Assembly (NCBI GenBank): GCA_024698505.1
Contig: JAILRE010000018.1
Location: 1-64,000, forward strand
Source: Clostridiales bacterium
Lineage (GTDB): Bacteria; Bacillota; Clostridia; Christensenellales; CAG-138
Direction of reading: 5' to 3'
Length of the DNA: 64,000 nucleotides
A model generated the notes under the pieces. It searched no databases and was not told the DNA's origin. It was given only the letters and a program-made list of their open reading frames with translations. Positions 21,617 through 26,970 of this stretch are shown here, one piece after another (positions within the stretch are counted from its first letter, which is position 1; each line of letters starts with the position of its first letter). A program made the position numbers and the translations under genes.

Positions 21617-22660
21617 ATGGCTTCCAAAAGAATGATGATCGGAAATACGGCTGTCGGAGGCGGTGCTCCCGTCACGATACAATCCATGACGAATACCGAT
21701 ACCAGGGACGCCGTCCGTACGACGGAACAGATACTCTCCCTTGAAAACGCGGGCTGTGAAATAGTTCGTTTCTCCGTATATGACGAGGATTGCGCAGCGT
21801 CCATTCCGTACATCAAGGCGCATACGCATATCCCGCTCGTTGCCGATATCCATTTCGATCACAGGCTTGCGATCGCAGCTATCGAAAACGGCATCGATAA
21901 GGTCAGGATAAATCCCGGCAATATCGGCTCGGAGCAGAAGGTGCGGGAGCTCGTTGCCGCCGCCAAGGACAGGAATATCCCTATCAGGATAGGCGTCAAC
22001 GGCGGTTCTTTGGAGAAGGATATCCTCAGAAAGTACGGCGTTACTCCCGAGGGAATGCTTGAAAGCGCGCTGTCTCACGTCGCCATTCTTGAAAAATGCG
22101 GCTTCTATGACATTGTTATTTCCATGAAAGCTTCCACCGTTCAAAAGACGGTCCAGGCGAACAGGCTTGCAAGCAAGAGGACGCCTTATCCTCTTCACCT
22201 CGGCGTGACCGAGGCTGGCATGGGGGAGGCGGCCATGGTGAAATCCTCCATAGGCATAGGCTCACTTCTTCTTGACGGCATAGGCGATACCATTAGGGTC
22301 TCCCTTACGGGCGATCCTGTAAGGGAAGTATATGCCGCCAAAAGGATACTCGCCGCCGTCGGCCTCCGATCGGAAGGCGTCGAGGTCGTCAGCTGCCCCA
22401 CGTGCGGCAGGACGAGAGTAGATCTTGCGAGCATCGTAAAGAAGGTAGAGGAGTCCCTTCCAGAAACGGATAAGTCGCTCAGGATCGCCGTTATGGGCTG
22501 CGCCGTAAACGGCCCGGGCGAGGCAAGGGAAGCTGATATCGGCATAGCTTTCGGAAGCAAAAACGCCGTAGTTTTCAAAAAAGGCGAGCTTTGCTATTCG
22601 GACAAGCTTCCCGAGGTTGTGGACAGGTTTATTTCGGACGTTAAATCGGAGCTTCAATGA
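21617..22660 (+). CDS. ispG: 4-hydroxy-3-methylbut-2-en-1-yl diphosphate synthase (flavodoxin)
   Basis: 'IQSMTNTDTRD', 'VADIHFDHRLAI', 'VSCPTCGRTRVDL', 'IAVMGCAVNGPGEAREADIGIAFG'. Confidence 0.97.
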   Translation: MASKRMMIGNTAVGGGAPVTIQSMTNTDTRDAVRTTEQILSLENAGCEIVRFSVYDEDCAASIPYIKAHTHIPLVADIHFDHRLAIAAIENGIDKVRINPGNIGSEQKVRELVAAAKDRNIPIRIGVNGGSLEKDILRKYGVTPEGMLESALSHVAILEKCGFYDIVISMKASTVQKTVQANRLASKRTPYPLHLGVTEAGMGEAAMVKSSIGIGSLLLDGIGDTIRVSLTGDPVREVYAAKRILAAVGLRSEGVEVVSCPTCGRTRVDLASIVKKVEESLPETDKSLRIAVMGCAVNGPGEAREADIGIAFGSKNAVVFKKGELCYSDKLPEVVDRFISDVKSELQ

Positions 22661-25600
22661 GCGAACAGGAATACATCAACATCGGCAATAAGCTTCTGAA
22701 GAATTCGGCTTTCTCCATTACGCACGCATCGAGGTCGTCTTCTACAGGCGCTTTTCATATCTGCCTTAAAGCGGAGAAGATACTGATGCCCTTCGAGATA
22801 GAGGCCATCAAGCGCTTCATCTGCGATAAGCTTTTGACAAACAACGTCTCTTTCGAGATCGACTTCAAGGAAGCCGTGGACGGGCTGTCCGATATGCGGG
22901 AAGACGACGTCGCGGATCTTTTCAGGGAGATCTGGAGCCGTATCTCTCCCGAGATTTTTCCCGTGCTCGCAAATTCTCTTATCGACGTTTCAAGGGACGA
23001 GGACGGCACGGTATTTATCGTAAGGTCTTCTCCTGAGCTTATCAAAGCCATCGATGCGGAAAGCGTCTCAAAGATCAAAACCGAGGCCGCCAATAACTGG
23101 GACTGGCATTTCGGAATAAAGCTCGTCGGCGATCAGGATCTTAACGATATCAAAAGCTATGACGTTTCGCCTTACGTAGTCAGGGAACGCGTTTCCACCG
23201 CCGATATCGGTTCAGCAGAGCCCGCCCCCACAAAGCGAAAGAAGCCTTCCGCCAAGGCTGCCGTCGATCCGAAGGATATCGTCCTCGGCAAGGAAATAGT
23301 CCGCCGCGAGATCACGCCTATGAGCGATTTCTCCGAGACTACCGGCAGCGCCATAGCGAAGGGCGCTATAATCGGTTACGAGGTATCGGAAACGAGGGAC
23401 AAGTCCAGATCCATATTCAAGATCGACTTTTCCGACAAGACCAATTCGCTCTCTGCCAAATTCTTCACAGAGCCCGACAAGGCCGGTTCCATCGAATCCC
23501 TGCTCAAGGAGATCAAGGATAAGGGCGATGAGATCATAGTTCGCGGCAGTTATAAGTACGATTCCTATTCCCGCGATTACATACTGATGGCGAACGACGT
23601 CAACAGATGCGCCCGCGAAAAACGCATCGACGACGCTCCCGATGGCGAAAAACGCGTGGAGCTTCATCTGCATACGCAGTCATCGACCATGGATGCTCTT
23701 ACGAAGGTGTCCGACGTCGTCAACACGGCTTTCAAGTGGGGCCACAGGGCCGTCGCCATCACGGATCACGGCGTAGTTCATTCGCTTCCCGAAGCGATGA
23801 AGATCTATAAGGATATCAAAAAGACCGCCCGCGCCAATGGCGTCGATCCCGATTTCAAGGTCATATTCGGCTGCGAAGGCTATCTTGTAAGCGACTCAAC
23901 GATCCACAGCATAGACGAGCGTCCCTATACCGCTGTCGCCGTTACCGCGGCCTATTCCGCTGCGGGTACCGCGGTTTATGAGATCCGCGCCGTCAAGTTC
24001 GATCATGAAGGTACCGTGATCGGCGAATTCGGTTCCGTGACCGATCCCGGCGCATCCCTGCCCAAATGGGCTGCGGAAAAATGCGGCATTGACGAGGATG
24101 AATTCAAAAACGCTCCCGAGGCGATCAAAGTCGTCGGCGACTTCGTTTCGTTCGCTGAGGGTTCCGTGATCGTTGCCTATAACGATACCGTAATAAACGG
24201 GCTTTCTTCCGTGCTCGCTTCGGAGGACATATTGCCCTTCGAATACGTCGATATCAATAAGCTCGAGCTCAATATGCACCTTAATATCAAGGATTACAGC
24301 ATGGAGAGCGGCTGCGCGCCGATAAGCGGCAGATACGAAGCTCTTCCCGAGATCCCCGCAAAGGACAGCGTCCGCGCTTTGAAGGAGCTTGCGGCAGGGC
24401 TTATCGCCGAGCTCAAGCAGAACGGCGGCACGGAGATCCCCTATTGGGACAGACGAGAGCCCGATTATACGAAGCTTCAGCGTTACCATATCATACTGCT
24501 CGCCGCGAGCCACGAGGGCCTTAAGAACCTCTACAAGCTCGTTTCCTATTCGCATCTGCAGTATTATCACAAGCGTCCCTGCATCCCCAGAAGCCTTCTG
24601 AACATGCTGAGGAACGGCATACTGCTCGGCTCCGCCTGCGAGGCGGGAGAGCTTTACAGGGCTGTTTCCAGAGGACTCCCCGCAGAGGAACAGAAGCGCA
24701 TCGCCAAGTGGTATGATTACCTTGAGATACAGCCGCTTGACAATAACATGTTCATGACCGCTTCGGACGAACTCAACGTATCCGTCGACGATCTTAAGAA
24801 CTTCAACAGGCGCATAGTCGAGCTCGGCGACGAGCTGGGCAAGCTTACCGTTGCCACGTGCGACGTGCATTTCCTGGAGCCGGACGACGCGATCTTCCGT
24901 TCCATACTCCTTCATTCTCAGGGCTACAGGGACGCAGTCAGGATGACTCCGCTCTATTTCAGAACGACCAAGGAGATGCTTGACGAGTTTTCCTATCTCG
25001 GTGAGGAAAGGGCGAGGGAGGTAGTAATTACAAATCCCAATATCATCGCCGATATGTGCGGCGAGCAGCTGCATCCCTTCCTTGACGAGAAATTCACCTA
25101 TTCGCCCGAGCTTCCCAACGCCAAGGAGATCCTCGAGAGCATGACAATGAACGAGGCGCACAGGCGTTACGGCGATCCGCTTCCCGAGATAGTCCAAAAA
25201 AGGCTCGACAAAGAGCTTGCTTCCATAGTCGGCAACGGTTATTCTTCGCTCTACATGGTCGCGCAGAAGCTCGTTTCCAAATCCCTGGGCGACGGATATC
25301 TCGTAGGCTCAAGGGGTTCCGTCGGATCGTCTTTCGTTGCGACCATGCTTGGCATAACGGAGGTCAACGCGCTTCCTCCGCATTACCTCTGCCCCAACTG
25401 CAAATACAGCGAGTTCAAGACCGACGTCCATTCAAGATGCGGCATCGACCTTCCCGATAAGGATTGCCCCGTCTGCGGAACAAAGCTCCGAAAGGAGGGC
25501 TACGATATCCCGTTCGAGGTGTTCCTCGGCTTCAAGGGCGATAAGACTCCCGATATCGATCTGAATTTCTCGGGCGATTACCAGCCCGTCGCGCACAGAT

Positions 25601-26970
25601 TCACCGAGGAGATGTTCGGCGCAGGTCACGCTTTCAGAGCGGGCACCATATCCGCCGTTCAGGATAAGACCGTTTACGGTTACGTAAAGCATTATTGCGA
25701 GGATCTCGGTCTCAATAAGTCCGAAACCGAGATCAACAGGCTCGTTCAGGGCTGCCTCGGAGTAAAGAAGACCTCAGGTCAGCATCCCGGCGGCATCGTA
25801 ATAGTCCCCGAGGATTACGAGATATTCGATTTCTGCCCCGTTCAGCATCCCGCCGATAAGAACGACAGCGGATCCGTTACAACGCATTTCGATTTCCATG
25901 CGCTCGACGATAAGCTCGTTAAGCTTGACATACTCGGTCACGACGATCCCACCGTTCTCAGAATGCTCAACGATCTGACGGGCCTCGATCCGAGGACCAT
26001 CCCGCTTGACGATCCCGAGACGATGTCGATCTACAGCACGGACGCCGCGCTCGGCGTCAGCCTTAAGCCTCTCGGATGCGACGTGGGCTCTTTGGCGATA
26101 CCCGAATTCGGCACCGGCTTCGTTCGCGGCATGCTGACGGAGACGAGGCCGACAACGATGGAGGAGCTCGTCAGGATATCCGGCCTTTCCCACGGTACCG
26201 ACGTTTGGAACAACAACGCGCAGGTGCTCGTGCAGAACAAGGTCGCGACACTAATGGAGGTCATCTGCACCCGCGACGATATAATGAACTATCTCATCTC
26301 CATAGGCGGAGATCCTTCGCTTTCGTTCAAGACGATGGAAAGCGTCCGAAAAGGCAGGGGATTGAAGCCCGAGATGGAGGAAATGATGCACAGCATTTCC
26401 GTCCCCGAATGGTTCATAGACAGCTGTAAAAAGATCAAGTACATGTTCCCGAGGGCGCACGCGGCGGCATACGTCATGATGAGCTTCCGAATTGCGTACT
26501 ATAAGGTCCATTACCCGCTTGAGTTCTACGCGGTCTACTTTACGGTAAGGGCGGATACCTTCGATATAGAGCTTTGCCTTGGCGGATTCGACGCCGTTAT
26601 GAATAATCTGAAGGCGCTGAAGAGCAAGGATAAGCCCGATCAGAAGGAGAAGGACGCAATCACGATACTCGAGGTCGTAGCCGAGATGAATCTTCGCGGA
26701 TTCGAGCTTCTGCCTGTCGATCTTTACAAATCAAAGGCCAAGAACTTCACCATCGAGGACGGCAAGCTGAGGCCTCCGTTCACGTCGGTTGCGGGGCTCG
26801 GTGAGAACGTCGCCGTGCAGATCGAGAACGGCGCCAAAGGCGGCGAGTATTCCTCCAAAGAGGATTTCGCCATAAGAACGAAGGCGAATTCGAGCATAAT
26901 AGAAAAGCTTGCCGCGCTCGGATGCTTCGAGGGGATCCCGGACACGGATCAGATCAAGTTCAGTTTCTGA
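22657..26970 (+). CDS. polC: DNA polymerase III subunit alpha, Gram-positive PolC type
   Basis: PHP 'VELHLHTQSSTMDA', Zn finger 'CPNCKYSEF...CPVCGTKL', 'GDKTPDIDLNFSG', 'SGQHPGGIVIVP', 'MFPRAHAAAYVMM'; ATGA overlap with ispG. Confidence 0.98.
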   Translation: MSEQEYINIGNKLLKNSAFSITHASRSSSTGAFHICLKAEKILMPFEIEAIKRFICDKLLTNNVSFEIDFKEAVDGLSDMREDDVADLFREIWSRISPEIFPVLANSLIDVSRDEDGTVFIVRSSPELIKAIDAESVSKIKTEAANNWDWHFGIKLVGDQDLNDIKSYDVSPYVVRERVSTADIGSAEPAPTKRKKPSAKAAVDPKDIVLGKEIVRREITPMSDFSETTGSAIAKGAIIGYEVSETRDKSRSIFKIDFSDKTNSLSAKFFTEPDKAGSIESLLKEIKDKGDEIIVRGSYKYDSYSRDYILMANDVNRCAREKRIDDAPDGEKRVELHLHTQSSTMDALTKVSDVVNTAFKWGHRAVAITDHGVVHSLPEAMKIYKDIKKTARANGVDPDFKVIFGCEGYLVSDSTIHSIDERPYTAVAVTAAYSAAGTAVYEIRAVKFDHEGTVIGEFGSVTDPGASLPKWAAEKCGIDEDEFKNAPEAIKVVGDFVSFAEGSVIVAYNDTVINGLSSVLASEDILPFEYVDINKLELNMHLNIKDYSMESGCAPISGRYEALPEIPAKDSVRALKELAAGLIAELKQNGGTEIPYWDRREPDYTKLQRYHIILLAASHEGLKNLYKLVSYSHLQYYHKRPCIPRSLLNMLRNGILLGSACEAGELYRAVSRGLPAEEQKRIAKWYDYLEIQPLDNNMFMTASDELNVSVDDLKNFNRRIVELGDELGKLTVATCDVHFLEPDDAIFRSILLHSQGYRDAVRMTPLYFRTTKEMLDEFSYLGEERAREVVITNPNIIADMCGEQLHPFLDEKFTYSPELPNAKEILESMTMNEAHRRYGDPLPEIVQKRLDKELASIVGNGYSSLYMVAQKLVSKSLGDGYLVGSRGSVGSSFVATMLGITEVNALPPHYLCPNCKYSEFKTDVHSRCGIDLPDKDCPVCGTKLRKEGYDIPFEVFLGFKGDKTPDIDLNFSGDYQPVAHRFTEEMFGAGHAFRAGTISAVQDKTVYGYVKHYCEDLGLNKSETEINRLVQGCLGVKKTSGQHPGGIVIVPEDYEIFDFCPVQHPADKNDSGSVTTHFDFHALDDKLVKLDILGHDDPTVLRMLNDLTGLDPRTIPLDDPETMSIYSTDAALGVSLKPLGCDVGSLAIPEFGTGFVRGMLTETRPTTMEELVRISGLSHGTDVWNNNAQVLVQNKVATLMEVICTRDDIMNYLISIGGDPSLSFKTMESVRKGRGLKPEMEEMMHSISVPEWFIDSCKKIKYMFPRAHAAAYVMMSFRIAYYKVHYPLEFYAVYFTVRADTFDIELCLGGFDAVMNNLKALKSKDKPDQKEKDAITILEVVAEMNLRGFELLPVDLYKSKAKNFTIEDGKLRPPFTSVAGLGENVAVQIENGAKGGEYSSKEDFAIRTKANSSIIEKLAALGCFEGIPDTDQIKFSF

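Follow-up and report, generated by a model that had tools for sequence, protein, structure and literature searches.

A PolC replicase that appears to have kept its inserted exonuclease domain after loss of the catalytic residues, across a clade of Christensenellales-like Clostridia

The window, i.e., the whole 64,000-nucleotide stretch of Clostridiales DNA that was analysed, encodes a complete PolC whose polymerase acids are all in place. Of the catalytic residues of its inserted DEDDh exonuclease none is left, D, E, D, H, and D being gone alike, and the Asn of ExoII is the sole survivor. Our preferred reading, to which we give a probability of about two in three, is that this PolC is a working replicase whose inserted exonuclease became catalytically inactive a single time, in an ancestor shared by one subfamily of Christensenellales-like Clostridia, and would have been kept since then as a folded dead domain. 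Under this reading, the zinc PHP sites of PolC, DnaE1, or both would perform 3'-5' editing and mismatch repair would stand behind them, so that loss of the magnesium DEDDh site could be tolerated, and the insert, lying in a loop beside the PHP site, may be retained for structure or as a binding surface.

The polC gene and its inserted domain

The polC gene (22657..26970, encoding the 1437 aa DNA polymerase III alpha subunit PolC; this and all features below are on the + strand) lies in the gene order dxr-rseP-ispG-polC. Its ORF belongs to the PolC equivalog, with a full-length match to NF001688 at 1467.6 bits (cut-off 873), a match to TIGR01405 above cut-off, and matches to 9qpc and 3f2b. The N-terminal and OB regions (residues 1-330; 22657..23646) were placed relative to the PHP domain and include a weak OB match at residues 243-315. 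The PHP domain, matched by Pfam over residues 335-687, comes in an N-terminal half with ligands H337, H339, D346, H371, and E407 (23647..23895) and a C-terminal half with ligands H611, C661, D736, and H738 (24475..25056), so that alignment columns give nine of nine zinc ligands in the pattern HHDHEHCDH. The palm keeps all three catalytic aspartates, D966 and D968 in the D-x-D motif (25552..25560) and D1091 (25927..25929), as placed by alignment columns. The initial annotation, made from the sequence alone, had called the PHP and polymerase motifs intact, and this holds. The class of insert-free PolCs (the 2013 variant) is excluded for this protein, since its PHP halves are separated by an exonuclease-type insert of 193 residues.

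The insert (residues 414-606; 23896..24474) scores below threshold against Pfam RNase_T (20.2 bits, cut-off 24), and its catalytic columns were placed by alignment with intact PolCs, including a 30-sequence alignment and genus-level columns. The former ExoI D-x-E now reads A428-V429-T430 (23938..23946); the former ExoII (24181..24192) keeps its Asn as N509 and has V512 in the Asp position; and the former ExoIII region, IPAKDS (residues 566-571; 24352..24369), has no His and has S571 in the position of the last Asp. The initial annotation had proposed just this, i.e., an ExoI without D-x-E, an ExoII with the Asn but not the Asp, and an ExoIII without HxxxxD, and the alignments with intact PolCs confirm the loss. 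At ExoI, ExoII, and ExoIII the residues of an active DEDDh enzyme are thus missing, and the insert is best read, on its residues, as a catalytically dead pseudo-exonuclease.

Structure prediction points to retention of the overall fold, as had also been suggested. AlphaFold modelled PHP plus insert with a mean pLDDT of 89.5 and the insert alone with a pLDDT of 81.8, and Foldseek matched the insert alone to S. aureus PolC 9qpc (TM 0.75), S. thermophilus DnaQ (TM 0.74 over target), and E. coli epsilon 2gui (TM 0.70 over target). The alignments behind the model were mostly of intact PolCs, which biases it toward the canonical fold; with that leaning, the insert is predicted to retain an RNase H-like DnaQ fold.

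One might still suppose that the insert is catalytic through shifted or non-canonical residues. A block at residues 527-564 around VDINKLELNMHLNIKDYSMESGCAPISGRYE (24235..24348), which sits between the former ExoII and ExoIII where intact enzymes have a helix and the ExoIII loop, is strikingly conserved in ten species of the genus by column conservation and holds conserved acidic or basic residues (D532, D546, E561, H541, and C553). However, this block is confined to the window's genus, being absent from the sister genera in the PolC alignment, and is in part a loop of low pLDDT, and across the same ten species none of the five catalytic positions has a conserved acid. Genus-level columns and the 30-sequence alignment rule out DEDDh acids at shifted positions, a finding that would have spoken against the initial annotation. 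D570, one residue off the position of the last Asp, varies among D, E, Q, and K in congeners. We regard a relocated active site as very improbable. The block itself is perhaps a new interaction surface. In a distant relative (L043 of G028), a D-G-E string is present, by eye upstream of the first strand, and is missing from its sister genome.

Inheritance of the loss and constraint on PolC

The search of relatives gave a match in 78 of 81, part of these being DnaE only, and the resulting PolC alignment holds 58 PolCs. The exonuclease is degenerate in all ten genomes of the genus that have PolC and in 19 further genomes, so that 29 genomes from 13 of the family's genera share the loss; the exonuclease-intact genera make up the remainder of the family. 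The survey of relatives proposed in the initial annotation thus finds the loss to be clade-wide, which also bears on the idea of a sequencing or assembly artefact. The window does come from a draft genome of 64 contigs, but the loss is common to 29 genomes and the ORF is open over 1437 aa. Misassembly is excluded because the ten genus genomes and the 13 genera show the same loss, and we give an artefact of either kind a negligible chance.

In a PolC tree built from PHP and polymerase columns with the exonuclease columns excluded, the 26 full-length degenerate rows fall together (SH-aLRT 93). A DnaE1 tree groups the same genomes with support 95, together with two genomes without a polC match. 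Some changes lie outside this pattern. The PolC of G017 (L025), in the intact clade, has the first catalytic Asp of ExoI changed to Tyr (FYIETTGL) in an otherwise intact exonuclease, apparently a recent separate inactivation. In G059 (L050), from another family of the order, the exonuclease has degenerated independently. The PolC of G003 (L002) has Gly at the third polymerase Asp (VKLGILGHDD versus VKLDILGHDD), possibly through sequencing error.

The dead insert is under relaxed constraint, yet not free, and PHP and palm remain constrained. At palm identities of 0.60-0.80, exonuclease identity is ~0.20-0.26 in the dead clade versus ~0.54-0.61 in intact family members, or in coarser figures ~20-27% versus ~50-60% at equal palm divergence. 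Other Firmicutes, again at equal palm divergence, show ~0.43-0.57, and PHP identity is nearly the same in the dead and intact groups. For genus pairs, dN/dS is ~0.2-0.35 for the exonuclease and ~0.02-0.06 for the palm, both rough values with dS near saturation.

These palm values bear on a further explanation, namely that PolC has been demoted, with DnaE1 and its complete PHP domain doing most of the replication, so that PolC is on its way out and its proofreading no longer matters. In its favor, strong PolC matches are lacking in many families of the order, DnaE1 is present with its PHP site complete, and one genome that the DnaE1 tree places with the exo-dead clade (G032, 96% complete) has dxr-rseP-ispG followed directly by rimP-nusA; polC was not found elsewhere in that genome. 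On the other hand, the palm in the genus is under strong purifying selection and only one genome departs from the full set of polymerase acids, from which we take it that PolC still does something important, and loss of polC at the locus level is seen in one clade genome only. We therefore consider demotion rather unlikely as a full account, although the absence of polC in G032 fits a gradual demotion of PolC in a PolC plus DnaE1 system.

Some details of these loci are recorded here in their own right. At L358 (G032:C35:210000-222000), the gene order is canonical except that ispG and rimP-nusA have no polC between them, and the contig spans the site. Possible losses of polC in G023, G012, G001, and G009 were left uncounted, as ispG is missing there too and an assembly gap may be responsible. 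G029, of the intact clade, is rearranged downstream of ispG and gave no PolC. A short PolC-like protein occurs at L059:917-2062 (on C24 of the window's own genome), L060, L061, and L062:3704-4864; it keeps pieces flanking the palm acids without the GDKTPDIDLNF motif, is intact at ~386 aa in G011, and is broken by a TAG in the window's genome. In G000 and G011, a DUF2779/Cas4-like nuclease gene precedes it.

Candidate proofreaders

If the inserted domain is dead, as we prefer to read it, any editing would come from elsewhere. The initial annotation had offered PHP-based proofreading in place of DEDDh as one option, and this is the best supported of its ideas. The nine-ligand pattern HHDHEH(C/H)DH is complete in the window's PolC and in DnaE1 of 42 of 42 genomes (by ligand columns for seven positions and by a motif scan for the first two His), which makes the PHP sites of PolC and DnaE1 candidate proofreaders. 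The window's genome encodes MutS and MutL, on C24, so that loss of mismatch repair is ruled out. Completeness alone does not establish a PHP takeover, since nearly every clostridial PolC has the full PHP site, those with an intact exonuclease included; clostridial PolCs are not known to have PHP nuclease activity. Proofreading by M. tuberculosis DnaE1 is done by a PHP site with all nine residues, and PHP exonuclease activity was absent from a PolC in which one ligand is changed (PMC5636811). The same structural paper describes the DnaQ domain of PolC as inserted into a loop beside the PHP site (PMC5636811). We favor PHP editing backed by mismatch repair because the PHP sites are kept, MutS and MutL are kept, and PHP proofreads in M. 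tuberculosis DnaE1. A more specific version, in which PolC would edit only via its own PHP zinc site and the insert, with its block at residues 527-564, would now serve in structure or binding, the whole being an intermediate between canonical PolC and loss of PolC, is put forward tentatively, at somewhat less than even odds.

A DEDDh exonuclease acting in trans could in principle replace the dead domain. An intact DEDDh gene adjoins rarA in five congeners (G001, G005, G007, G008, and G010), and RNase_T-family genes occur in several more of the exo-dead genera. Nothing, however, ties such nucleases to PolC, and the window's genome and several congeners have no RNase_T-family gene of this kind: there were no free-standing RNase_T matches in the window's genome (85% complete), none besides PolC in G002, G003, G006, G011, and G012 (90-94% complete), and no RNase_T-family gene in G028 (94% complete). 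A stand-alone DnaQ as general substitute, another option of the initial annotation, is thus ruled out for the window's genome and several congeners, and replacement in trans appears improbable for the clade. The small exonuclease gene beside rarA (L105-L109 in the five congeners) has been lost in others: G002 and G012 have rarA without a DEDDh neighbor, and the sole rarA-like gene found in G000, G003, G006, and G011 is a paralogue of 45% identity.

It could also be that nothing has replaced the lost activity and that the lineage is a natural mutator. An exonuclease-defective polC allele does raise the mutation rate in B. subtilis (PMC11890065), but B. subtilis is expected to be without PHP back-up, as most Bacilli PolCs in our sample have a D-to-N change in PHP; DnaE3 PHP has been reported as disrupted (PMC3919608). 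Here, in contrast, MutS and MutL are kept, there are two complete PHP sites, that of DnaE1 being one, and the exo-dead condition has persisted while at least 13 genera diverged, all of which speaks against a mutator. The high mutation rate raised in the initial annotation is therefore unsupported, and we judge this explanation even less probable than replacement in trans.

Breadth of exonuclease loss and relation to known systems

The loss was set against a wider sample. A separate scan of GTDB genomes found DEDHD in 78 of 80 Firmicutes PolCs, the two exceptions being members of the dead clade. At the level of the class, 109 PolC loci comprised 80 intact, 21 without insert (one truncated ORF included), and 8 others. 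Among these eight, one is truncated at a contig end (L277) and one is a degenerate remnant (L281). Three (L293, L295, and L300, from G146, G198, and G173) have a divergent, unrelated-looking or remnant insert of ~135 aa at the exonuclease site, and three more (L303, L304, and L305, from G213, G163, and G137) are PolCs of ~1650 aa with a divergent ~310 aa insert replacing the exonuclease; PHP is complete in all six. On a FastTree tree of 238 PolCs, with some long branches, the exonuclease must have switched between the intact and lost states at least 14 times, with ~6 inactivated and ~9 deleted groups.

The PHP site was complete in 60 of the 60 exonuclease-lost PolCs in which all nine positions were covered. 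PHP substitutions occurred in 12 of ~183 exonuclease-intact PolCs, all 12 with the exonuclease intact, and nine of these are the D-to-N change, found in this sample in Bacilli, where most sampled PolCs have DEDDh intact and PHP broken by it. A tie between exonuclease loss and PHP completeness (0 of 60 broken versus 12 of ~183) is weak once relatedness is counted. Within Clostridia, two PolCs (L298 and L311, from G195 and G169) have the reverse pattern to that of the window, with several PHP ligands substituted and DEDDh intact.

PolCs without the exonuclease insertion make up 6% of PolCs, in Clostridia and Negativicutes (PMC3919608), so that whole-domain deletion is already published. A 2026 survey reported three active proofreaders as the usual complement of Clostridia, and inactivation in Pol III alpha subunits as hitting PHP, not DnaQ (PMC12926913). 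No prior report of a PolC retaining an inactivated DnaQ domain was found in the literature searched, and the inactivated-but-kept exonuclease is clade-wide and apparently both new and recurrent. The clade and ~5 other apparently independent cases contradict the 2026 statement that such inactivation does not occur. Bacteria of the dead-insert clade, which are uncultured Clostridia of gut type, probably correct copying errors differently from textbook PolC organisms, and the clade and these other cases amount to a natural experiment on the capacity of PHP to sustain PolC proofreading. Since a single class contains PolCs with the domain deleted, inactivated, or intact, comparing them makes it directly testable which of the three candidate clostridial proofreaders matters.

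The window's PolC shares with canonical PolCs carrying DEDDh (B. subtilis, S. aureus 9qpc) its family, domain order, polymerase acids, and predicted insert fold, but those enzymes keep the DEDDh residues, all five of which are lost here. Exonuclease-less PolCs are likewise without DEDDh proofreading, PHP-complete, and paired with DnaE1; there the domain has been deleted, whereas here it appears to be kept folded and inactive throughout a subfamily. The nine-residue PHP zinc site is complete as in M. tuberculosis DnaE1 (PMC5636811), which is, in contrast, a DnaE-type enzyme without an inserted DnaQ domain and one whose PHP activity was measured, where we infer it for PolC. Lastly, PolA2 (APEX) and the B-family G2 polymerases (PMC12926913) also keep a vestigial 3'-5' exonuclease domain, but these are A- and B-family accessory enzymes, whereas the protein described here is a PolC-type replicase.
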